NCBI RefSeq assembly: GCF_012516375.2
Contig: NZ_CP051204.2
Coordinates: 4,836,001-4,900,000, forward strand
Origin: Chitinophaga oryzae
GTDB taxonomy: Bacteria; Bacteroidota; Bacteroidia; Chitinophagales; Chitinophagaceae
Length of the DNA: 64,000 nt
Direction of reading: 5' to 3'
Below are positions 21,208 to 32,905 of the stretch, piece after piece; position 1 is the stretch's first letter; each line of letters opens with the position of its first letter. Position numbers and translations under genes: made by a program. The notes below the pieces were generated by a model. It was given only the letters and a program-made list of their open reading frames with translations. It had not been told where the DNA came from and made no database searches.

Positions 21208-22092
21208 TCAGGACAAACTTTGCATCAGGGATGCGCGGTATTCGGAAGGTGTAAGGCGGGTGATCTTCTTAAAAAGACGGCCGAAATAACCTGGATCTTC
21301 ATAGTTCAGTTCAAACGCCACAGCGGCGATGTCTTTGGTGAAATCCTGCAGCAACAGCTGACTGTGCTGGATATTCACTTTATTGATCCACTCCTTCGGC
21401 GCAGTGCCTAATGTTTGCTGCACGCAACGGTTGAGGTAATTCACGGAGACAGCCAGTTTATCTACATAAAAAGCGACAGATCTTTCTTCCACATGGTGTT
21501 TGTATACCAGTTCCTTAAAAGCGAATGTGATTTCGCTGCTGCGGTTGACCGATTTATGCTGTCCTTTGTCGGCAGCGATGATTTTGAGAAGGGCGGCCTG
21601 AAAGAGGGAATAACATATTTCCAAATCGGGGGCAGGCTGGTATATTTCCCGCGCCAGCAGCATAAAAAGCGGGGTAAGCCAGTGGCTGGCCTCATCGGGT
21701 AAGGGAATGACAGTACCGGCGCTGAACAGGCGGACCAGTTTTTCTTTGGACAACAGATGACGGAGGGTACTGTCTTCAAAGATCACTACATATCCTTCCA
21801 CGTCGTCGCTGGTTTCCAGCAGGGCAGTCACATTACCGTTTTTTACAAAGAGCACATCATGAGGGGAGATGTGTTTTACCGCGGCATCTACCTGTTGACT
21901 GGCAGTGCCTTTGGTGAGGTGAACGATAAAGTTGTAGTCCGGCCGGTAGAGCGGCGTAGGCAGGCTGATGAATGCAGCTGTTTCCCGGATATCGAATATT
22001 TGCAGCGGCGTGTCCCTTGTTTTGAAGACCGGCGGCACGGCCGTCATATACCGGCATTCAAAATCAGCGGGGGCGATCCTTTTTATTTTCAT
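21208..22092 (-). CDS. AraC-family transcriptional regulator
   Basis: A 294-residue product from ATG 22092 (MKIKRIAPADF). The N-terminal half is a cupin-like sensing domain (RPDYNFIVHLTKGTASQQV, ISPHDVLFVKNGNVTALLE). The C-terminal 100 residues hold two HTH motifs: VAFYVDKLAVSVNYLNRCVQ and IAAVAFELNYEDPGYFGRLFKK followed by LTPSEYR, a classical AraC ending. It is probably an activator responding to a small ligand. Targets may be the barrel gene downstream or the divergent neighbourhood. Confidence 0.92.
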   Translation of the reverse strand: MKIKRIAPADFECRYMTAVPPVFKTRDTPLQIFDIRETAAFISLPTPLYRPDYNFIVHLTKGTASQQVDAAVKHISPHDVLFVKNGNVTALLETSDDVEGYVVIFEDSTLRHLLSKEKLVRLFSAGTVIPLPDEASHWLTPLFMLLAREIYQPAPDLEICYSLFQAALLKIIAADKGQHKSVNRSSEITFAFKELVYKHHVEERSVAFYVDKLAVSVNYLNRCVQQTLGTAPKEWINKVNIQHSQLLLQDFTKDIAAVAFELNYEDPGYFGRLFKKITRLTPSEYRASLMQSLS

Positions 22093-22140
22093 ATGGCAGA
22101 TGCTGTTACTTCGATACGACACCTGAGCCCCGTCTTACCC

Positions 22141-22569
22141 CTATTCTTCTTCCTTCAGCACGTCTACTACTTTCCGCAGGATGCGGGTAAACTGTTCCAG
22201 TTCATTTTTGGGAAGCATGCTGCTGATGCGGGTGGTGACGCTGTGGCGCTGGTTTTCCGACCCGTCGACCAGGTGTTTTCCTTTGGCGGTCACTTCCAGC
22301 AGGAAGAGGCGGCGGTCCTGCGGACTTTGTTGCTGGACGATCAGTTTTTTTTCCAGCAGTATTTTTACATGGCGGGAGATGGCGGGGGCGCTGATATGGA
22401 ATTTCTGCGCCAGTGTTTTGCCCGTGGCGGGACCGTTGCGGTAGAGGTATTCCACCATGTTGTAGTGCGTAGCCCCTATACCGTTATAGTCGCCGTTGTT
22501 GACCTGAGCGATCACGTAACATTGGAAATCGGTATAGGTATCAAAAAAGGCTTTTTGCGCTTTCTCCAT
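22141..22569 (-). CDS. MarR-family transcriptional regulator
   Basis: The 142-residue product has the MarR winged-helix core: GIGATHYNMVEYLYRNGPATGKTLAQKF, then ISAPAISRHVKILLEKKLI and the beta-wing QQSPQDRRLFLLEVTAKG. It is divergent from the UvrA2-like ATPase, and the 56-bp gap between starts holds a perfect inverted repeat. It therefore probably represses itself and the uvrA-like gene and is relieved by a DNA-damaging or hydrophobic drug-like ligand; the ligand is inference. Confidence 0.93.
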   Translation of the reverse strand: MEKAQKAFFDTYTDFQCYVIAQVNNGDYNGIGATHYNMVEYLYRNGPATGKTLAQKFHISAPAISRHVKILLEKKLIVQQQSPQDRRLFLLEVTAKGKHLVDGSENQRHSVTTRISSMLPKNELEQFTRILRKVVDVLKEEE

Positions 22570-22625: not shown

Positions 22626-24902
22626 ATGTATCCGCTAAAAATCACCGGCGCCCGCCAGCACAATCTGAAGAACCTGACACTGGAGATCCCTAAAAACACC
22701 ATCACCGTTTTTACAGGTGTGTCCGGATCGGGCAAATCGTCGCTCGTATTCCGGACCATCGGGGCGGAAGCGCAGCGGCAGATGAGCGAGATGCAGCACA
22801 GCTTTGTGCGCAGCAGGATGGAGCACCTGGGCGTGCCGGACGTGGACAGCATCGAACACCTGAATGTGCCGGTGATCATCAACCAGAAGCGGCTGGGCGG
22901 TAATGTCCGCTCCACCGTAGGGACCGCCACGGATATTTATACGTCGCTGCGGCTGTTGTTTTCCCGCATAGGCAAGCCTTTCGTAGGGTATGCCAATACA
23001 TTTTCGTTCAACCATCCGCAAGGCATGTGCCCGGTCTGTAGCGGCATCGGGCAAACGCGGCAGATAGACATCGGTCAGTTAATAGATAAAAGCAAATCGC
23101 TGAATGAAGGAGCTATCCTCTTCCCGACCTTTCAGCCGGGCGGCTTCCGCTGGCTGCGTTACACGGAATCGGGGTATTTCGACAACGATAAAAAACTCGC
23201 CGACTATACGAAAGACGAATGGGAGATGCTGCTCCATGCGGAAGAGCATGTTCCGCCGCACCCATCTCCCCAATGGGGCAAAACCGTGCGTTACACCGGT
23301 ATTATTCCCCGGCTGGAAAGGGATATCCTGAAAAAAGACACCAAAGAACTGCGGCTGCGGGAAAAAGAGATCAGCAGGATCGTCCGGGAACAGCCCTGCC
23401 CCTCCTGCCATGGTAAAAGGCTCAATGAAAAGATACTTTCCTGCAAGATAAACGGCCTGGATATCGCCGACTGCGCCGCCATGCCGGCAGACGAGCTGCT
23501 GGCCTTTATCCGTCCCGTGAAAGCCGCCGGGTACGACACCATTGTCGCCGAACTGGTAAAAAAGCTGCAACATATGATCACCATCGGGCTGGGTTATCTC
23601 ACACTGGACCGGGTAACGCCCACGCTCTCCGGCGGCGAATCGCAACGGATTAAAATGGTGCGGCATCTTGACAGCAGCCTGGAGAACCTGCTTTACATTT
23701 TCGACGAGCCCAGCATAGGATTACACCCCGCCGACCTGGACAACCTCTCCCGCATCATTCAGAAGATCCGCGATAAAGGCAACACGGTGTTACTGGTGGA
23801 ACATGACCCTGACCTGATCCGCATTGCCGATCATGTGATCGACATGGGGCCGGGTTCAGGCACTCATGGCGGCGAAATCGTTTACCAGGGCACTTTTAAG
23901 GGCCTGCGCAAAAGCACCGGCAAAACAGGCCGTTACTTCGCCCGGCAGCAAACCTACAATCAGCATCCACGCACATTTACCGACACGCTGACCATCCGTC
24001 ATGCAAAGCTGCATAACCTGAAAGACATCACGGTAGAAATTCCCCGTGGCGTGCTGACCGTCGTTACCGGCGTGGCCGGCTCCGGCAAAAGCACGCTGAT
24101 CAGCGACGTGCTGCCGTTGCAACACCCGGAGATCACGCTGATAGACCAGTCCGGCATCGCCGGACATTCCAAATCCAACCTGCTGACCTACCTCGGTATT
24201 TCCGATATTATCCGCAACCTCTTCGCTCATGCCAATGACGTCAGCAATAAGCTCTTCAGCCGCAACAGCGAGGGCGCCTGCCCCAACTGCAAAGGCCTCG
24301 GCATCGAAAAAATTGACCTGGCGTTTATGGACGATGTGGAGATACCCTGCGAAGTATGTGGCGGCAGCGGCTTCCGACCCGAAGTGCTGGCATATCGCTA
24401 TCATCAGAAATCCATCGCTGACGTGATGGACCTCACCGTGGAGGAAGCGGCCGTATTTTTCCCGGAGCAACCACAGCTCCGCCGCCATTTCGCGATGCTG
24501 CACGACCTGGGCATGGGTTACCTCACGCTGGGCCAACGGCTGGACACCTTCTCCGGCGGAGAACTGCAGCGACTGAAACTCGCCACGCAACTGAAAGAAC
24601 AACACAGCATAGTGGTACTGGACGAACCCAGTACGGGCCTGCATCCCGCCGATACAGAAAGACTGCTCGCGCTTTTTAACAAACTCGTCAACGCCGGGCA
24701 CACGCTGATTGTCATTGAACATAATTTAGACATCATCGCCTGCGCCGACTGGATCATCGATATGGGACCCGGCGCCGGCAAAGACGGCGGTCAGCTTACC
24801 TTCGAAGGGACTGTGTCCGACCTCCTGCAACAGGCACATACGCCTACAGCCGATTATCTGCGCAAATACCTGGAACGCGGCAACAAAAAAACATCGCAAT
24901 AA
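22626..24902 (+). CDS. Class II UvrA-like ABC ATPase (UvrA2/DrrC type)
   Basis: The 758-residue product contains two ABC ATPase units: Walker A GVSGSGKSS (about residue 32) and GVAGSGKST (about 475), signature motifs TLSGGESQRI and TFSGGELQRL, and Walker B segments FDEPSIGLHP and LDEPSTGLHP. Zinc-finger Cys pairs are present (CPVC, CPSC, CPNC, CEVC). At 758 residues it is about 180 shorter than housekeeping UvrA and appears to lack the UvrB-binding insertion, as in class II UvrA proteins linked to resistance to DNA-intercalating drugs (DrrC type). Divergent MarR control supports an inducible resistance role. It lies directly upstream of the halogenase operon but 359 bp apart, so I do not assign it to that pathway. 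Confidence 0.93.
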   Translation: MYPLKITGARQHNLKNLTLEIPKNTITVFTGVSGSGKSSLVFRTIGAEAQRQMSEMQHSFVRSRMEHLGVPDVDSIEHLNVPVIINQKRLGGNVRSTVGTATDIYTSLRLLFSRIGKPFVGYANTFSFNHPQGMCPVCSGIGQTRQIDIGQLIDKSKSLNEGAILFPTFQPGGFRWLRYTESGYFDNDKKLADYTKDEWEMLLHAEEHVPPHPSPQWGKTVRYTGIIPRLERDILKKDTKELRLREKEISRIVREQPCPSCHGKRLNEKILSCKINGLDIADCAAMPADELLAFIRPVKAAGYDTIVAELVKKLQHMITIGLGYLTLDRVTPTLSGGESQRIKMVRHLDSSLENLLYIFDEPSIGLHPADLDNLSRIIQKIRDKGNTVLLVEHDPDLIRIADHVIDMGPGSGTHGGEIVYQGTFKGLRKSTGKTGRYFARQQTYNQHPRTFTDTLTIRHAKLHNLKDITVEIPRGVLTVVTGVAGSGKSTLISDVLPLQHPEITLIDQSGIAGHSKSNLLTYLGISDIIRNLFAHANDVSNKLFSRNSEGACPNCKGLGIEKIDLAFMDDVEIPCEVCGGSGFRPEVLAYRYHQKSIADVMDLTVEEAAVFFPEQPQLRRHFAMLHDLGMGYLTLGQRLDTFSGGELQRLKLATQLKEQHSIVVLDEPSTGLHPADTERLLALFNKLVNAGHTLIVIEHNLDIIACADWIIDMGPGAGKDGGQLTFEGTVSDLLQQAHTPTADYLRKYLERGNKKTSQ

Positions 24903-25261: not shown

Positions 25262-27028
25262 ATGTTTACTCAGGACACTCCCTCCTCCGACTACCTGTTT
25301 GATGTAATCATCTGCGGTGGCGGACTAGCCGGACAAACACTGGCACGGCAACTCAAACTAAGCCACCCCTCCCTTTCCGTGCTGATGATCATCAAGTCAG
25401 CAATGCCGCTTGCCGCAAACGACTTTAAAGTAGGCGAATCTACCGTAGAGGTTTCCGCCTTCTATCTCAGTGAAACATTAAGGTTAACCGACTATTTCCG
25501 GAACAACCACTACCGGAAATTCGGGTTCCGCTACTTTCTCGGAAACGGCAGCGACATTCCCGCTAACAGGCCCGAGGTAGGGCTCTCCTCCTATCCGCCA
25601 TACGATTCCTACCAGATAGACAGAGGCGTCCTTGAGAATGACCTCTATTATATGAATCTGCATGCGGATGTCCATATTATCACCAACGCTACCGTAAAAT
25701 CTATCCAGCTGTCAGATGAGGGCACACCGCACACGGTTGTTTATCAAACGGAAAAAGAACAGCTGACAAAAGAAATAAAAGGCCGTTGGGTGGTGGACGC
25801 CAGCGGAAGAAGGCAGCTTATTCAACGGGCGCTTCAATTGAGCGAGCCTCCCGAAACCGTCTGCAGCTCCACCTGGTGGCGCGTAAAAGGCAGACTGGAC
25901 ATAGACGACCTGGTACCTAAGACCCACCGTGAATACTACACGCGCGTAGCCCGCAGGTCCCGCTTTTTCTCCACCACGCACCTGCACAACCAAGGGTACT
26001 GGGTATGGCTGATCCCGCTGTCTTCCGCCAATACCAGCGTGGGAATCGTGACGACCGAATCCATTCATCCATTTGAAACCTACAACACTTTTGATAAATC
26101 CATGCAATGGCTCAGTATACATGAGCCGGTATTATACCAACATATGAAACAATTCGAAGTACTGGATTTTCTCAAAATGAGGAACTACAGTTATGGGTCA
26201 AGGCAGCTGTTTTCAGTCAACCGCTGGGCCTGTACCGGAGAAGCAGGGCTCTTTACAGATCCTTACTATTCTCCCGGTTCCAACTTTATCGCTTTTGAAA
26301 ACACGATGATCACGAAAATGATCACAGATGATGTCAACAACGATGATAGCTGGAAAACACAGGTAGATGCCTACAACGATTTTTTAATCAATATGAATAA
26401 ATGGCTCACAAAGTCTATTCAGTCATCCTACACTTACTTCCATCTGGATATTGTGATGGCACTCAGTTTCATATGGGATGTAGCAGCAGGATGGTCATTT
26501 ATCAGTCCCAGGATGTTTAACAGCATCTACCTCGACACTACTGCCACCGCCTATCTGAAAGCGACCTCGCTCCGCTTTTTCACCATTGCCTACAACGTGG
26601 AAAATTTCTTCAATGAATGGAAAACGCAGACACCGGACACGTATACCTTTGATTTCATCAACTACCTCTCTGTTCCTTTCCTGCGGGACATATACAACCG
26701 TAACCTGAAATCGGGGAAGACCACTACCCAGCTAAAAGCCGAGTTCGAGCAAAACCTGCGCGACCTGGAAATGTTTGCGCAAGTGCTGTTCTGGATAGCC
26801 CTGGAAGACGTACATCCGGAGATGACGGCCTTAATAAAAGAAAAGCCCTGGCTAAATGCTTCGGCCATCAGCCTCGACACAGCCTCATGGAAAGAACGGC
26901 GGCTGTTTGAGCCGGATACGCCTCCGGCAGACATTACCGGCGTTTACCACCAGTTGAAATCATTGTTCCGTAAAAGGGAACAGGACAACAGCAGCATTGA
27001 GGAAGATTTTAATTATTCATTCAGATAA
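25262..27028 (+). CDS. Flavin-dependent halogenase (tryptophan-halogenase superfamily)
   Basis: The 588-residue product has a FAD-binding GxGxxG start (CGGGLAGQTLARQL, residues 18-31), FKVGEST at 55-61, the halogenase-specific WxWxIP motif as WVWLIP at 247-252, and the late FAD site GEAGLFTDPYYSPG at 326-339. Lys86 in YRKFGFRYF is well placed to be the catalytic lysine that carries the haloamine. Enzymes of this class chlorinate or brominate electron-rich rings using FADH2, oxygen and halide; a reductase must come from elsewhere, as none is encoded here. The next gene, an NRPS with a carrier domain, starts 9 bp later, suggesting a carrier-bound substrate (PltA/CndH mode). The long C-terminal extension (about 400-588) is also typical of carrier-acting members. 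Halide preference cannot be read from sequence. Confidence 0.92.
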   Translation: MFTQDTPSSDYLFDVIICGGGLAGQTLARQLKLSHPSLSVLMIIKSAMPLAANDFKVGESTVEVSAFYLSETLRLTDYFRNNHYRKFGFRYFLGNGSDIPANRPEVGLSSYPPYDSYQIDRGVLENDLYYMNLHADVHIITNATVKSIQLSDEGTPHTVVYQTEKEQLTKEIKGRWVVDASGRRQLIQRALQLSEPPETVCSSTWWRVKGRLDIDDLVPKTHREYYTRVARRSRFFSTTHLHNQGYWVWLIPLSSANTSVGIVTTESIHPFETYNTFDKSMQWLSIHEPVLYQHMKQFEVLDFLKMRNYSYGSRQLFSVNRWACTGEAGLFTDPYYSPGSNFIAFENTMITKMITDDVNNDDSWKTQVDAYNDFLINMNKWLTKSIQSSYTYFHLDIVMALSFIWDVAAGWSFISPRMFNSIYLDTTATAYLKATSLRFFTIAYNVENFFNEWKTQTPDTYTFDFINYLSVPFLRDIYNRNLKSGKTTTQLKAEFEQNLRDLEMFAQVLFWIALEDVHPEMTALIKEKPWLNASAISLDTASWKERRLFEPDTPPADITGVYHQLKSLFRKREQDNSSIEEDFNYSFR

Positions 27029-27037
27029 GGACGATGT

Positions 27038-29539
27038 ATGAAAAATGTAGATCCATTGCAGTTCACAGATCCTAAGTATGTATCTTTCTTTCAGTACTGG
27101 CGGGCGGCGGAAGACGCCCCCACTAATTTCACCTTCCGGCTGCAGTTTACCCGTCAACCACTTGTAAAAACTTCCACCCGCGTGTTCCGCCTGCCTGGCA
27201 GCGCTGCTATACCGCTGTTACGCCTGGTCCCGGGAGAAAAAAGTGCGTTGTTCACAGCATTCATCGCAGCCGTAGCATGGTTGCTGGACCGCTATTGCGG
27301 CCAGAAAGATATTATTTTACATACGCCGCTGCTGCAAACATCCAGGCCTGCGATTGTATACGAACCATTTGTTCCCATCAGGATCCGCATTGATCCTTCC
27401 GCTGATCTGCAAACACATCTCGAGCATTGCCGGACAGCTGTCAAAACAGCGTACCGGCATCAGAATTTTCCTTTATCGCTCGTTAGCCGGCGCCAGCAGG
27501 ATTACCTCAGCAGCAACATCCTGCTCTGTATGGAAGGTCTTCATCAGCCACAGCAAGCAACGCAGCATGATCTGATTTACCATATTGAAAATACAGGTCA
27601 GGACATTGTCCTCCGTGTCACCTGGCAGGAAGCCTATTTTCCATCCTGGTTTATCGACAACATGCTGAGCCACCTGATGAATACTTTTGGCGGCCTGGAG
27701 AACATCACTACCCGCCTGTCTGACGTGCGGATACTCGGCGAGCATGAGCGGCAGCAGTTAAGGCGCTTCAGCTCTTCCCGGAACGACACGTTGCCGGCAG
27801 CAACCATCCACGGATTTTTTGAAGAAAAAGCGGAACAGTTTCCAGACCATGTGGCATTGGTCCACCATGCTGCCATGTACACCTATCGGGCACTGAACGA
27901 AAAAGTCAACCAGCTGTCGCACCGGCTGCGTATGGTTCATAACATCACGCAGGGATCGATGATCGGCATTTGTATGCAGCGGTCGGCCTGGCAGGTGATT
28001 GCCATGTTGGCCATCCTCAAAGCGGGTGCGGTGTATGTACCTTTCGATATTCATCTCCCTGATGCCAGAGCGCAGTTTATGCTTGCCGACGCCAATATCC
28101 GGCTGATGATCACAGATGCCACCACGCAGGCCCGGTTTGATCCGGCAGTGCCCACTATTGGTATTGAACAGAATATCCTGCCGGCATCCGGCAATTTCCC
28201 CGTAAGTAATCCTTCACCGGTAGCAACACCTCAGGACCTGGCCTATGTCATCTACACTTCCGGCACCACCGGCCAGCCTAAAGGCGTTCCCATCAAACAT
28301 GCCGGCGTAGTGAATATGGCGACAGACCAGGTGCTGCGCTTTGGCATCCGGAACACCGACCGGGTGGCAGCCTTTGCGAATGTGACCTTTGACGCGGCTG
28401 TTTCGGAGGTACTGATGGCTTTATATGCGGGCGCCGGCATCGTAGTGACAGACGAGGCGTTGATTAAAGACACCACCCGGCTGCTGGACGAATGGCGTCT
28501 GCAACGGGTGAGCGTCGTCACTCTTCCGCCTGCCTACCTGCGCATCCTGCCACCGGATGCCCTGCGTTTCCTGCGGGTGCTGATCACGGCAGGCGAACCT
28601 GCCAATCCTGAAACGGCCAGGTATTGCAGCGGTTTCCTGGAATACTATAACGCTTACGGGCCTACGGAAAACACCGTCTGCACCAGCATCTACAAGGCCA
28701 CGCCTGACGGTCCCTGCCCCCGGCGGCTACCCGTTGGCACCCCCATCGCCAATACACAGGTATACATTCTGGATGAACGGTACCAGCCAACACCCGTCGG
28801 CATCACCGGCAGGCTGTACATTGCCGGTATGGGCCTGTCACCCGGGTACCTCAACCGGCCCGATCTTAACCGCGAAAAATTTATACGGCTGCCGGAACAT
28901 ACGGATACGCTGCTGTACGACAGTGGCGATCTGGCAAGATGGCTTCCCGACGGAAACCTCGACTTTACCGGCAGAGCCGATGACCTGATCAAGGTAGATG
29001 GCATCCGGATAGAGCCCGAAGAAATCAGTAACCTGCTGCTGCAGCATCCGCAGGTGAAGTTGTGCGAGGTATTGGCTGTCGGAACAACAGCGGAAAAGCG
29101 GCTGGTGGCATTTGTACAGCCAACACCGGGTACGCCTGCTGTAACGGAACAAATGTTTGCTGATTTTCTATATGAGCGCCTGCCGGCATACATGTGCCCC
29201 TCCCGCATTATCCTTACGTCCCATATTCCGGTCAACAGCAACGGAAAAACCGACAAACAGGCGTTGACTGCGTTACTGGATCATCAGACAAGCTACGCTG
29301 CTCCGGTCAACGAAGCGGAAGCCCATATGCAGGGCATCTGGCAGCAGGCACTTAATCTGCCCCGTATCAGCAGGGATGGACATTTCTTCCAGCTGGGCGC
29401 AACGTCCATCAATGTAATATCGCTGCACACCCTGCTTAAACAGGAGCATCCCGGCTTTGACATCCGGATGATATTCCGTTTTCCTGTACTCAGTGAGTTT
29501 ACTGCCGCATTTCTGGAAGACAAAAAACGATATACATGA
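27038..29539 (+). CDS. Single-module NRPS: partial C domain, tyrosine-type A domain, carrier
   Basis: An 833-residue protein. Residues 1-235 match only the C-terminal lobe of a condensation domain (starts SFFQYWR, ends with the bridge to the A domain); the HHxxxDG-bearing N-lobe is missing, so no condensation is expected. The A domain (about 255-745) has YTSGTTGQPKG (406-416), NAYGPTE (538-544), YDSGDLARW and the catalytic Lys737 in NGKTDK. The specificity positions read D452 A453 S456 T495 I516 A518 A539 V547 C548 K737 (DASTIAAVCK), one conservative change from a published tyrosine code (DASTVAAVCK) and close to phenylalanine DAWTIAAICK. The carrier (about 760-825) has LGATS with Ser790. There is no internal thioesterase; the next gene overlaps by 4 bp and supplies one. 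Likely loads Tyr for the halogenase. Confidence 0.92.
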   Translation: MKNVDPLQFTDPKYVSFFQYWRAAEDAPTNFTFRLQFTRQPLVKTSTRVFRLPGSAAIPLLRLVPGEKSALFTAFIAAVAWLLDRYCGQKDIILHTPLLQTSRPAIVYEPFVPIRIRIDPSADLQTHLEHCRTAVKTAYRHQNFPLSLVSRRQQDYLSSNILLCMEGLHQPQQATQHDLIYHIENTGQDIVLRVTWQEAYFPSWFIDNMLSHLMNTFGGLENITTRLSDVRILGEHERQQLRRFSSSRNDTLPAATIHGFFEEKAEQFPDHVALVHHAAMYTYRALNEKVNQLSHRLRMVHNITQGSMIGICMQRSAWQVIAMLAILKAGAVYVPFDIHLPDARAQFMLADANIRLMITDATTQARFDPAVPTIGIEQNILPASGNFPVSNPSPVATPQDLAYVIYTSGTTGQPKGVPIKHAGVVNMATDQVLRFGIRNTDRVAAFANVTFDAAVSEVLMALYAGAGIVVTDEALIKDTTRLLDEWRLQRVSVVTLPPAYLRILPPDALRFLRVLITAGEPANPETARYCSGFLEYYNAYGPTENTVCTSIYKATPDGPCPRRLPVGTPIANTQVYILDERYQPTPVGITGRLYIAGMGLSPGYLNRPDLNREKFIRLPEHTDTLLYDSGDLARWLPDGNLDFTGRADDLIKVDGIRIEPEEISNLLLQHPQVKLCEVLAVGTTAEKRLVAFVQPTPGTPAVTEQMFADFLYERLPAYMCPSRIILTSHIPVNSNGKTDKQALTALLDHQTSYAAPVNEAEAHMQGIWQQALNLPRISRDGHFFQLGATSINVISLHTLLKQEHPGFDIRMIFRFPVLSEFTAAFLEDKKRYT

Positions 29540-30237
29540 TTAACCTGTTTTGTTTCCCCTTTGTTGGCGGGGATGCCGGCGCCTATGAAAGCCTGCGTGT
29601 ACATGCAGGCGATGAGGTGAATATTATTACCCTTGAGCTGCCGGGAAGAGGCGCCCGTTATGCTGACCCACTCATTGATGACATACAGCTGCTGGCGGAA
29701 GACTGCTACCGGCAACTGTCCGGAAAGCTGTCCGCGCCATTCGCTTTTTTCGGGCACAGCATGGGCGCCCTGCTGGCCTACCTGCTTACAAGGAAACTGG
29801 CAGCGATGCGCCAACCACCGCCTGCATATCTTTTTGTATCGGGCTTCGGAGGACCTTCCGTGGCCATGACGGCCGCCCGCAGGCAAGTCGCCGTTGGCGA
29901 AGAGTGGAAGCGAAAAATGTATGAGGTAATGCAGGTCCCCCTGTCTGTTTTAAACAGCGAAACGTTCTGGGCGGTATATGAGCCCATCATTCGCACCGAC
30001 CTTCTCATGTTTAAAAAATATGACTATGAACCAGACGTTCCGTTCAACATTCCGATTTCGGTTTTCATTGGTACCGAAGATGACGTTACCATCGCGGAAG
30101 CTGGCGCCTGGCAACGGGAAACCGGCAGCCCTGTAACAATACATCTTTTCAGCGGCAAGCATCATTTCTGGAAAGACCACACCGGTGAAATCATGACCAT
30201 GATCCGGCAAAAGCTAATGGAAATAAAACAGCATTAA
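29536..30237 (+). CDS. Stand-alone type II thioesterase (alpha/beta hydrolase, GrsT-like)
   Basis: The 233-residue protein overlaps the NRPS stop through ATGA, so it is translationally coupled. It has the NRPS thioesterase hallmarks: CFPFVGGDAGAY near the start (oxyanion region), ELPGRGAR, nucleophile elbow GHSMG with Ser75, an Asp in IGTEDD, and a catalytic His in GKHHFW. Family members hydrolyse acyl groups off carrier proteins. With no TE domain in the NRPS and only one module, this enzyme may be the productive releasing step rather than an editing enzyme, liberating free (halo)tyrosine; that is inference. Confidence 0.93.
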   Translation: MINLFCFPFVGGDAGAYESLRVHAGDEVNIITLELPGRGARYADPLIDDIQLLAEDCYRQLSGKLSAPFAFFGHSMGALLAYLLTRKLAAMRQPPPAYLFVSGFGGPSVAMTAARRQVAVGEEWKRKMYEVMQVPLSVLNSETFWAVYEPIIRTDLLMFKKYDYEPDVPFNIPISVFIGTEDDVTIAEAGAWQRETGSPVTIHLFSGKHHFWKDHTGEIMTMIRQKLMEIKQH

Positions 30238-30258
30238 ATCACCCTCAATTTATTTCTT

Positions 30259-31638
30259 ATGCAAAAATCCCATCGGGCGGAGCCCTACAAAATTAAAATG
30301 GTAGAACCCATAAAAAAACTTACCCGCAGTGAGCGCGAACGGCTGATTGCCGCCGCAGGGTACAATGCTTTCCAGTTAAAGGCGGAAGAGGTATATATCG
30401 ATTTGCTGACCGACAGCGGTACCGGCGCAATGAGCGACCGCCAGTGGGCGGGCCTGATGATGGGTGATGAATCTTATTCGGGGAGCCGTAACTTCTACAA
30501 CCTGGAAGCCGCTGTGCAGCAATACTACGGTTACCGGTTTGTAGTGCCTACCCACCAGGGCCGTGGTGCAGAGCACCTCATTTCCCGTATGCTTATCCGG
30601 CCGGGAATGTACGTTCCGGGAAACATGTACTTTGCTTCCACCCGTTTGCACCAGGAGCTGGCCGGTGGCATTTTTAAAGATGTGATCGTCGATGAAGCCC
30701 ATGACCCTTATAGTACACATCCCTTTAAAGGTGATGTAGACCTGCTGAAACTTGAAAAGCTTATCCTTGAAACAGGCGCCGGCAACATTGCTTACCTGAG
30801 CCTCGCTACTACGGTCAACATGGCTGGCGGACAACCGATATCCCTTGGCAACCTGCAGCAGGTCAGGCAGCTCACTCTGCAACACGGGGTCCGCATCATA
30901 CACGATATGGCGCGCGTAGCTGAGAATGCCTATATGATACAACAACATGAACCGGGTCACCAGCATAAGACGGTGGCTGCTATCGTAAAAGAAATCTGCG
31001 CACTCACAGACGGAGCTGTTATGAGCGGCAAGAAAGACGCGCTTGTAAATATCGGCGGATTCCTGGCATTAAATGATCAGGGGCTTTATGAAGAAGCCAA
31101 AAATCTCGTGATCGTATATGAAGGCATGCATACCTACGGCGGCATGGCCGGACGTGATATGGAAGCCATGGCCATCGGCATAGCCGAGTCTGTGGAAGAA
31201 GAACATATTGCTTACCGTGTGCACCAGGTACATTATCTCGGTGATCAGCTGAAGGATGCAGGCATCCCTGTGGTAAATCCCATCGGTACCCATGGCGTAT
31301 ATCTCAATGCTGCTGCTTTTCTCCCGCATATTCCCCAGGTTCAGTTTCCCGCACAGGCGCTGACCGTGGCACTTTACCAGGAAGGCGGTATCCGTTCCGT
31401 GGAAAGGGGTATTTTATCAGCAGGCCGCAACAAAGAAACCGGAGATCATCATTATCCCAAACTGGAACTCGTTCGCCTCGCAATACCAAGACGGGTATAC
31501 ACGCTCGCACATTTGGATATGGTAGCGGAAGCGATCATGGCGACCTTCAAAAACAAGGATAACATCAGGGGCCTTGAGATGGTTTTTGAGCCCAAATACA
31601 TGCGCTTCTTCCAGGCCCGCTTCCAACAGGTACAATAG
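30259..31638 (+). CDS. Tyrosine phenol-lyase (beta-eliminating lyase) with altered ring pocket
   Basis: The 459-residue PLP enzyme is aligned by eye with Citrobacter freundii tyrosine phenol-lyase at a constant +2 offset. PLP Lys259 (SGKKD), Asp216, Tyr73, and Phe450-Phe451 are all conserved. Arg383, which holds the phenol hydroxyl and separates this family from tryptophanase (Ile there), is present, and the tryptophanase-specific insertion is absent. Reaction: tyrosine to phenol, pyruvate and ammonia, reversible. Two ring-pocket positions differ: Val381 (Met379 in Citrobacter) and Ala126 (Thr124). The Met-to-Val change is the one engineered in the Citrobacter enzyme to accept ortho-substituted phenols such as chlorophenol. 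Location 21 bp after the thioesterase suggests that a ring-halogenated tyrosine is the natural substrate. Confidence 0.93.
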   Translation: MQKSHRAEPYKIKMVEPIKKLTRSERERLIAAAGYNAFQLKAEEVYIDLLTDSGTGAMSDRQWAGLMMGDESYSGSRNFYNLEAAVQQYYGYRFVVPTHQGRGAEHLISRMLIRPGMYVPGNMYFASTRLHQELAGGIFKDVIVDEAHDPYSTHPFKGDVDLLKLEKLILETGAGNIAYLSLATTVNMAGGQPISLGNLQQVRQLTLQHGVRIIHDMARVAENAYMIQQHEPGHQHKTVAAIVKEICALTDGAVMSGKKDALVNIGGFLALNDQGLYEEAKNLVIVYEGMHTYGGMAGRDMEAMAIGIAESVEEEHIAYRVHQVHYLGDQLKDAGIPVVNPIGTHGVYLNAAAFLPHIPQVQFPAQALTVALYQEGGIRSVERGILSAGRNKETGDHHYPKLELVRLAIPRRVYTLAHLDMVAEAIMATFKNKDNIRGLEMVFEPKYMRFFQARFQQVQ

Positions 31639-31663
31639 TCATTCACTCAGCGTTTATTTCCCT

Positions 31664-32905
31664 ATGAATAACCAGGAAACATTTATCGGCCTGTTAATTT
31701 CGATCATTATTATCCTCATGTCCGCAAAGTTATTCGGACATCTGTTTACTTTCCTGCGGCAACCCAAAGTAGTGGGAGAAATGCTGGCTGGGGTGCTATT
31801 GGGGCCAACGTGCCTGGGATACTTTTTCCCCGCCCTGGCCAGCGAAATATTCCCTAAATCCCAGCTTCCGTTCCTCTTTATATTGGGCAACCTGGGGCTG
31901 TCCTTTTACATGTTTATTGTTGCACTGGAACTTGATTTCTCTTTGGTAGACAAAAAAATGCTGAAGCAGTCAGGCTGGCTTTCCTTTTTTATCATCGTTG
32001 CTCCATTTGCCCTGGGGCTGCTCTTCGGCGTCATTTATTTCGATCTGCTCAAAGGCGCTGCCGGCACTTTATCCTTTGGCATTTTCCTGGGAGCTTCCCT
32101 GGCTATCACCGCCTTCCCTATCCTGGCCAGGATACTGCAGGAAAACGGCCTGTTAAAAACAAGGATGGGCACTATCGTTACGCTCTCTGCCAGCATACAG
32201 GACGTGGTATCATGGATAATGCTGGCAGTAGTGCTCATGATGATAAAAGGTTCCTCCGCCTCCGGTTTTAAAACAATCATTGGCGCGCCGGTATACCTGT
32301 TGTTGATGTTCCTGTTGATAAAGCCGCTCTTAGCGGCAATATGCCGAAGGTTTTTCAGGAAGGAAGGGGATTTTTCAGGCTTTTTCTCTTTTACTGTCAT
32401 ACTCATTCTGGCGAGCGCCCTGGCCTCAGATTACCTGGACCTGCATTCAGTTTTTGGCGGTTTTGTGCTGGGCCTGATTTTTCCCAGGGATAAAAAAATG
32501 GTAGAGCCTCTGATCATCAGGATAAAAGATATGATCATTACCCTTTTACTTCCCCTATTCTTCTGCTTTTCAGGTCTGAATGCCAATCTGCTGATCCTGC
32601 AGGACCTGGGGTATCTGGTCCCCTGCATGGTGCTGGTTGTTTTTTCCTTTATCGGGAAATATCTTCCTTCGCTGATTATCATGCGCATGAATCATTTTTC
32701 ATTGCGGGAAGCTTCTGCCGTCGGTGGGCTGATGAATGCCAGGGGGCTGATGGAACTCATTATCGCCAATATCGGGCTGACTTACAACATCATCTCAAAA
32801 GAGCTGTATTCCATGATCATTCTGGTGGCGTTGCTTTCCACCATCATTGCTATGCCGATTTACAACATATCCATGCGCAGGCGATTTAGTTATTTCATTA
32901 TTTGA
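31664..32905 (+). CDS. CPA2-type cation:proton antiporter
   Basis: The 413-residue membrane protein has about 12 hydrophobic segments, starting MNNQETFIGLLISIIIIL at ATG 31664 (longer frames read back into the lyase gene). Family motifs: LLGPTCLGYFFP in the second helix, the crossed-helix region SLAITAFPILARILQENGLL, and SIQDVVSW in the following helix. CPA2 exchangers usually have Asp-Asp at the last site; here it is Gln-Asp, suggesting electroneutral or altered transport. Exporters of this type recur in natural-product clusters. It ends the operon, 25 bp after the lyase, and converges on the response-regulator gene. It could move phenolate or balance charge during ammonia release; neither is shown. 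Confidence 0.85.
   Translation: MNNQETFIGLLISIIIILMSAKLFGHLFTFLRQPKVVGEMLAGVLLGPTCLGYFFPALASEIFPKSQLPFLFILGNLGLSFYMFIVALELDFSLVDKKMLKQSGWLSFFIIVAPFALGLLFGVIYFDLLKGAAGTLSFGIFLGASLAITAFPILARILQENGLLKTRMGTIVTLSASIQDVVSWIMLAVVLMMIKGSSASGFKTIIGAPVYLLLMFLLIKPLLAAICRRFFRKEGDFSGFFSFTVILILASALASDYLDLHSVFGGFVLGLIFPRDKKMVEPLIIRIKDMIITLLLPLFFCFSGLNANLLILQDLGYLVPCMVLVVFSFIGKYLPSLIIMRMNHFSLREASAVGGLMNARGLMELIIANIGLTYNIISKELYSMIILVALLSTIIAMPIYNISMRRRFSYFII

Follow-up and report, generated by a model that had tools for sequence, protein, structure and literature searches.

A Chitinophaga operon joining a halogenase, an NRPS module and a tyrosine phenol-lyase: a possible route from tyrosine to halogenated phenols

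Introduction

Why would a tyrosine phenol-lyase (TPL) be encoded together with a flavin-dependent halogenase, a single nonribosomal peptide synthetase (NRPS) module and a thioesterase? This question is raised by an operon in Chitinophaga oryzae, whose genome is a single contig of 8.36 Mb. The operon occupies 25262-32905 on the + strand of the 64,000-nucleotide stretch that we analysed (contig NZ_CP051204.2, positions 4,836,001 to 4,900,000), hereafter called the window. We propose, with a probability of about 0.55, that this operon converts tyrosine into a halogenated phenol. The most likely product would be 2-halophenol or 2,6-dihalophenol, and a haloanisole in Chitinophaga sp. Ak27, which carries a sister operon. 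Because the first four genes recur in Ak27 in the same order and with the same 4-bp overlap, the arrangement is not due to chance.

Results

The operon consists of five intact genes separated by gaps of 9, -4, 21 and 25 bp in the list of open reading frames (ORFs). The initial annotation had named these families and gaps from the sequence, and the ORF list, Pfam, NCBIfam and motif checks bear it out. The features are as follows.

25262..27028, +, flavin adenine dinucleotide (FAD)-dependent halogenase, 588 amino acids (aa); Pfam PF04820, profile matches, AlphaFold2 (AF2) model and fold matches
27038..29539, +, one-module NRPS with half a condensation domain, an adenylation domain and a carrier; Pfam, HHxxxDG absent
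27164..27760, +, condensation domain, C-terminal half only; PF00668 profile positions 223-455 of 456
27818..29248, +, adenylation domain with code DASTIAAVCK; PF00501, PF13193, TIGR01733 above cut-off
29330..29509, +, carrier domain, phosphopantetheine Ser in LGATS at 29405-29407; PF00550, motif
29536..30237, +, type II thioesterase, GHSMG serine at 29758-29760; PF00975, motif
30259..31638, +, tyrosine phenol-lyase, pyridoxal phosphate Lys at 31033-31035; TIGR02618 above cut-off, Beta_elim_lyase (Pfam)
30634-30636 and 31399-31401, +, lyase pocket changes Thr124 to Ala and Met379 to Val, respectively (Citrobacter numbering); residue table
31664..32905, +, CPA2-like cation:proton antiporter, accessory; PF00999, TIGR00932 below cut-off

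The antiporter ORF is listed with a TTG start at 31574; the ATG at 31664, which gives a 413-aa protein, was used in the comparison with Ak27.

How widely is this set of genes found? A four-sequence halogenase profile run against 84,980 species genomes returned at least 15 halogenase loci, and the best match among those listed was Ak27. The two operons have the same gene order for the halogenase (71% identity), NRPS (50%), thioesterase (52%) and TPL (81%). Gaps in Ak27 are 8, -4, 33 and 93 bp, so that the 4-bp overlap is preserved, and the genes immediately upstream and downstream of the operon differ between the two strains. In place of the antiporter, Ak27 has an O-methyltransferase (Methyltransf_2) as its fifth gene. 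The five-gene order that the initial annotation had proposed to look for in Bacteroidota therefore holds for the first four genes and fails for the fifth. That annotation had also named, as evidence against its proposal, relatives in which the halogenase/NRPS pair consistently stands without the lyase; the one case found, Ak27, has the lyase.

Between the window and Ak27, the ratios of nonsynonymous to synonymous differences per site (pN/pS) are 0.24 for the halogenase, 0.46 for the NRPS, 0.40 for the thioesterase and 0.17 for the TPL, rough values since synonymous sites are saturated (halogenase, thioesterase) or close to saturation (NRPS, TPL). They suggest constraint on the operon genes, all of whose reading frames are intact. 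Of the 79 genus genomes, two were found to carry the operon halogenase: that of the window and Ak27. Matches at E <= 1e-20 occur in 72 of the 79, those outside these two genomes being much weaker (22-28% identical among 35 same-genus relatives searched). In 395 sampled genomes of the phylum, only the window's own halogenase passes E <= 1e-30, and four others among 344 sampled genomes of the family hold a relative of 33-34% identity.

The NRPS appears suited to loading an amino acid rather than joining two. Pfam gives the order Condensation (partial), AMP-binding, AMP-binding_C and PP-binding, and in both the window and Ak27 the condensation domain is represented by its C-terminal part only. 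Moreover, a motif check found no HHxxxDG in either NRPS. Because the condensation domain is incomplete and this motif is absent in both strains, no peptide bond is expected; the NRPS should load its amino acid without condensing it, and we rejected a role as a peptide maker. The adenylation domain scores 397.8 bits against the amino-acid adenylation model TIGR01733, whose cut-off is 317.4 bits. Reading its ten code residues by eye in the alignment gave DASTIAAVCK for both strains, although the two NRPSs share only 50% identity. We take this code to be Tyr-like, one residue away from the Tyr/beta-hydroxytyrosine codes of glycopeptide synthetases, an assignment that is presumptive; a literature search for those code strings gave no paper.

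Several features suggest that the first gene encodes a halogenase, probably one that acts on a carrier-bound substrate. Pfam places it in Trp_halogenase/FAD_binding_3. Its FAD-binding GxGxxG motif reads GGGLAG (residues 19-24, all but Leu22 invariant in 10 family rows), and its WxWxIP motif reads WVWLIP (residues 247-252, 26000-26017), with W247, W249, I251 and P252 invariant in 10 rows. K86 (25517-25519), invariant in 10 of 10 rows, aligns to Lys 76 of the PltA chain and Lys 91 of the CmlS chain, which we take to be the catalytic lysines (K73 and K71 without tags). PltA heads the profile matches at 100.2 bits, ahead of 3nix, Mpy16, CmlS and ChlB4, with 8zop (FasV) and PltM (33.7 bits) also matched. 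An AF2 model built from 10 sequences (pLDDT 84.5, pTM 0.88) has PDB fold matches to FasV, CtcP, PltM, 3nix, PltA, ChlB4, Bmp2, CndH and others, mostly flavin halogenases; the halogenases among them show 16-22% identity in structural alignments. Profile and modelled fold together support a predicted carrier-type enzyme resembling both carrier-dependent and phenolic halogenases.

In a tree of 15 rows, the halogenase groups with enzymes from Xenococcus and Gloeothece (support 100/99). The Xenococcus sp. protein (L063 9887-13744), the nearest relative found outside Chitinophaga, combines halogenase, AMP ligase and carrier in one polypeptide. Its neighbours include an FMN-dependent dehydrogenase and a glyoxalase-fold protein with a weak likeness to 4-hydroxyphenylpyruvate dioxygenase that is equalled by its likeness to methylmalonyl-CoA epimerase. 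The same contig also holds small peptides with ends like Gly-Gly leaders (by eye) and a radical SAM protein. The Gloeothece halogenase adjoins a gene annotated as 4-hydroxyphenylacetate 3-monooxygenase. Elsewhere in Bacteroidota, four family halogenases (L140, L141, L151, L152) adjoin carrier and/or ketosynthase-like genes (by eye), which suggests that this branch may make halogenated fatty-acid-like or aryl-polyene products. A role tied to fatty acid synthase or polyketide synthase (PKS), considered from such relatives, was set aside for the operon, which contains no such gene.

The fourth gene is predicted to encode a TPL on the basis of its equivalog score (TIGR02618, 724.9 vs a cut-off of 720.7 bits) and its catalytic residues. 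It is 57% identical to Citrobacter TPL and keeps Tyr71, Arg100, Asp214, Arg217, Lys257, Arg381, Arg404 and Phe448. Twelve of the 79 genus genomes match it, nine with a total of 10 TPL genes and three with a tryptophanase-like gene (46-47%). Outside the genus, we compared 30 top-scoring loci (80 of 395 genomes passed the cut-off) and four further regions; these gave 41 rows, namely 34 TPL rows (33 distinct genes) and seven tryptophanase-like rows, which were counted apart.

Two pocket residues of the window lyase differ from those of Citrobacter TPL. Position 379 is Val in 8 of the 10 genus TPL genes and Met in the other two (genomes G027 and G483), as it is in all 34 TPL rows from outside the genus. 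For the Citrobacter enzyme, PMC9262865 reports that wild type uses 3-chloro-Tyr very weakly, that M379A lowers kcat/Km for Tyr more than 100-fold while handling 3-fluoro- and 3-chloro-Tyr much better, and that M379V had already served well as a catalyst for tyrosines with bulky 3-substituents. Position 124 is Ala in the window lyase only; it is Thr in Ak27, in the other eight genus TPLs and in each of the 34 non-genus TPL rows. We treat Thr124 as a conserved residue of the pocket and not as one by which the TPL family is defined. The window and Ak27 lyases are sisters (support 98/94) nested in the Val379 clade. They have Ser125 and Met446 in common, and position 125 is Thr in 41 of 41 non-genus rows.

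What accompanies the lyase elsewhere in the genus? Nine of the 10 TPL genes adjoin an O-methyltransferase (L077, L095-L102), and the exception is the window copy. Most of these pairs lie in genomes without the operon halogenase. The window genome itself has a second lyase, 79% identical and about 2.6 Mb away, beside its own methyltransferase. Outside the genus, an O-methyltransferase was found beside TPL at 0 of 34 loci, 30 of which had only 1.5 kb of flank and which include one gene twice. The methyltransferase occurs in 15 of 79 genus genomes at E <= 1e-70, six of these without TPL beside it; the surroundings of four of the six were covered.

The antiporter does not appear to be a core component. 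It scores 180.2 bits against PF00999 (Na_H_Exchanger) and is called CPA2-like only, because it misses the subfamily cut-off (TIGR00932, 126 vs 238.3 bits). Antiporters also adjoin family halogenases in Janthinobacterium (L148) and in a Chthoniobacteraceae genome (L070). This recurrence is weak evidence because these proteins share only 26% and 34% identity with the window antiporter, respectively, and because 66 of the 79 genus genomes, the window's included, carry some antiporter homologue. On the Janthinobacterium lividum plasmid, the cation:proton antiporter (L148 8422-9723) directly precedes the halogenase, and a type I PKS lies further on. The nearest genus relative (48%; L136 7987-9273, genome G493) sits in a polyketide-like cluster (by eye), flanked by a 673-aa protein without a Pfam match and a transporter-like protein.

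GC content is 48% in the halogenase gene and 53% in the whole window. Promoter-like sites in the scan were near chance (12 vs 10.1 +/- 3.1 expected). Terminator-like sites exceeded it (16 vs 8.6 +/- 2.9), lay mostly on the opposite strand and were not used as evidence; the terminator scan gave none at the operon's end. Upstream of the operon is a 758-aa UvrA-like ABC protein (22626-24902), beside divergent MarR and AraC regulators (21208-22569). This protein presumably resembles the UvrA-type self-resistance proteins.

Discussion

How might these enzymes work together? From the observed gene content, gene order, conservation, motifs and residue changes, we infer every chemical step of the following route. 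The adenylation domain, judging from its code, would load L-Tyr onto the carrier. The FADH2-dependent halogenase, judging from its family and relatives, would then halogenate the carrier-bound Tyr once or twice, ortho to its phenol hydroxyl, and the thioesterase would free 3-halo- or 3,5-dihalotyrosine. The lyase, whose class is predicted from sequence, would split this putative substrate into 2-halo- or 2,6-dihalophenol, pyruvate and ammonia. In Ak27, the phenol would presumably be O-methylated to a haloanisole. The antiporter perhaps counters the effect of a phenolic uncoupler on membrane potential or on the pH of the cytoplasm; an accessory role in protection or export is a guess.

The initial annotation had proposed a halotyrosine-to-halophenol route. 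In its favor are the four-gene order, which includes the lyase, and the adenylation code, both kept in Ak27, together with the carrier-type halogenase, the Val379 pocket and the Ak27 O-methyltransferase. One part of the proposal did not stand. The antiporter is not a fixed part of the pathway, since an O-methyltransferase takes its place in Ak27, and we rejected it as a core part. Val379 in turn appears older than the link to the halogenase, and we rejected it as proof of halotyrosine use, as it marks a clade of Chitinophaga lyases drawn mostly from genomes without the operon halogenase.

Other observations likewise weigh against the halophenol route. The four-gene set was found in two strains only, and the Ak27 operon does without the antiporter. 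We compared neighborhoods at 18 family halogenase loci (L062-L070, L140-L142, L147-L152), some on short contigs, the six weakest loci of the profile scan (L071-L076) falling outside the comparison. At the 17 loci besides Ak27, there is no TPL, and several of the 17 have carrier, ketosynthase-like (by eye) or PKS genes around them. In the Xenococcus fusion, the AMP ligase resembles a fatty acyl-AMP ligase and misses the adenylation cut-off (TIGR01733, 140.6 vs 317.4 bits). The fusion thus supports a carrier-bound substrate for the halogenase family without backing an amino acid, and it probably acts on an acid instead. Seven genomes hold Val379 lyases and just two of them have the operon halogenase; Val379 therefore seems to predate the halogenase link and to be at best a pre-adaptation, not specific to halotyrosine. 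Thr124 binds the substrate hydroxyl in TPL (PMC9262865), and the loss of this contact through Ala124 could weaken lyase activity. PMC5805759 describes a lyase, evolved in the laboratory from an E. coli enzyme, that has Pro at position 124 and shows phenol-lyase activity. Finally, the methyltransferase tree differs from the lyase tree: the Ak27 copy falls outside the G483/G458 and Val379-linked copies, with weak support (80/83).

Could the lyase instead serve halotyrosine as an end product, or as a feed for another enzyme, by running in reverse to supply a substituted tyrosine or by only recycling an excess? TPL is reversible, and Met379 variants have been used to make 3-substituted tyrosines (PMC9262865). 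However, an NRPS without a complete condensation domain or a second module leaves no sink for the amino acid. Moreover, the fifth gene of Ak27 is an O-methyltransferase with homologues beside halogenase-free TPLs too, which points to phenol as the next substrate. We consider this explanation unlikely, and a reverse-running lyase is the less likely direction. Less probable again is a lyase that acts first, on plain Tyr, with the halogenase following on free phenol or a small phenolic and the NRPS and thioesterase serving a different acyl group. The fold matches do include PltM, crystallised with phloroglucinol. However, the profile favors PltA (100.2 bits) over PltM (33.7 bits), the related halogenase of Xenococcus forms one chain with an AMP ligase and carrier, and the adenylation code presumably is Tyr-like. 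The M379A variant also prefers substituted Tyr to Tyr (PMC9262865).

The remaining explanations question single enzymes. If the adenylation domain loads another aromatic residue (Phe, beta-hydroxytyrosine or hydroxyphenylglycine), a different halogenated product would result and the lyase would be a passenger. The code is, we presume, near both Phe and Tyr/beta-hydroxytyrosine codes, and code predictions err, but the same code in two NRPSs of 50% identity and two operon lyases that both exceed the TPL cut-off make this improbable. It is least credible that the flavoprotein does not halogenate in practice and, for example, hydroxylates, so that the lyase yields catechol, guaiacol or phenol. In favor of this reading, the second-best profile match, 3nix, is a Cytophaga flavoprotein whose activity is not stated, and Val379 lyases adjoin O-methyltransferases in genomes without the operon halogenase. 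Nevertheless, the Lys and WxWxIP are retained, and M379A TPL is poorer than wild type on L-DOPA (PMC9262865).

How could a halophenol route have arisen? The simplest reading is that an old pair of enzymes leading from Tyr through phenol to a methyl ether was later joined, in one lineage, by a halogenase-NRPS-thioesterase cassette. On the same simplest reading, the window copy of the lyase lost or never had an adjacent methyltransferase, and has the antiporter. The route may thus stem from a cassette added to an older Chitinophaga lyase/O-methyltransferase pair. It is possible that the pairs elsewhere in the genus form a separate tyrosine-to-anisole type of volatile pathway.

If the route exists as drawn, it would be a short, dedicated bacterial path from Tyr to halophenols, and in one strain to haloanisoles, which are known as musty-smelling volatiles; the gene set would be a genetic marker for such compounds. 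TPL would gain a new role, biosynthetic and not degradative, and the lyase would be a natural enzyme for halogenated tyrosine, parallel to the Met379 mutants made by engineers. In its full form, the proposal is of halophenol or haloanisole biosynthesis cut by a lyase, with halogenation on the carrier, release, cleavage and, in one strain, methylation. The lyase pocket would admit 3-halo-Tyr and, in the window, perhaps the 3,5-dihalo form through Val379 and Ala124. We advance this version tentatively, at somewhat short of even odds. A search of open-licence PMC articles found no described route from halotyrosine through a lyase to halophenol, a scope in which absence is weak evidence. The same scope gave no literature on a lyase with an O-methyltransferase and anisole, on a chloroanisole cluster with a halogenase, or on Chitinophaga and anisole.

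How does the operon compare with known systems? Cassettes that tailor tyrosine on a carrier include SgcC1/C2/C3 of C-1027 and BpsD/OxyD/Bhp of balhimycin. As in these systems, a free-standing adenylation-carrier protein would load an aromatic amino acid that is tailored on the carrier; balhimycin also has a hydrolase for its release. Those cassettes feed the assembly of a larger antibiotic, whereas here a lyase would cut off the amino acid side chain. The halogenase has the fold, FAD motif, aligned Lys and WxWxIP of PltA, Mpy16, CmlS, ChlB4, CtcP, FasV (8zop), PltM and Bmp2; unlike PltA-type flavin halogenases, to which it is about 16-22% identical, it groups with cyanobacterial enzymes. The lyase is like that of Citrobacter freundii in sequence (57% identity) and in the catalytic residues checked, and unlike it in having Val379, Ala124 and a place in an operon with a halogenase and an NRPS. 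The marine Bmp bromophenol pathway also produces bacterial halogenated phenols through flavin enzymes. However, it starts from chorismate through 4-hydroxybenzoate and uses no amino acid, NRPS or lyase. The parts of the operon are all of known kinds, and the difference from the tyrosine-tailoring cassettes would be a lyase that cuts the released amino acid.

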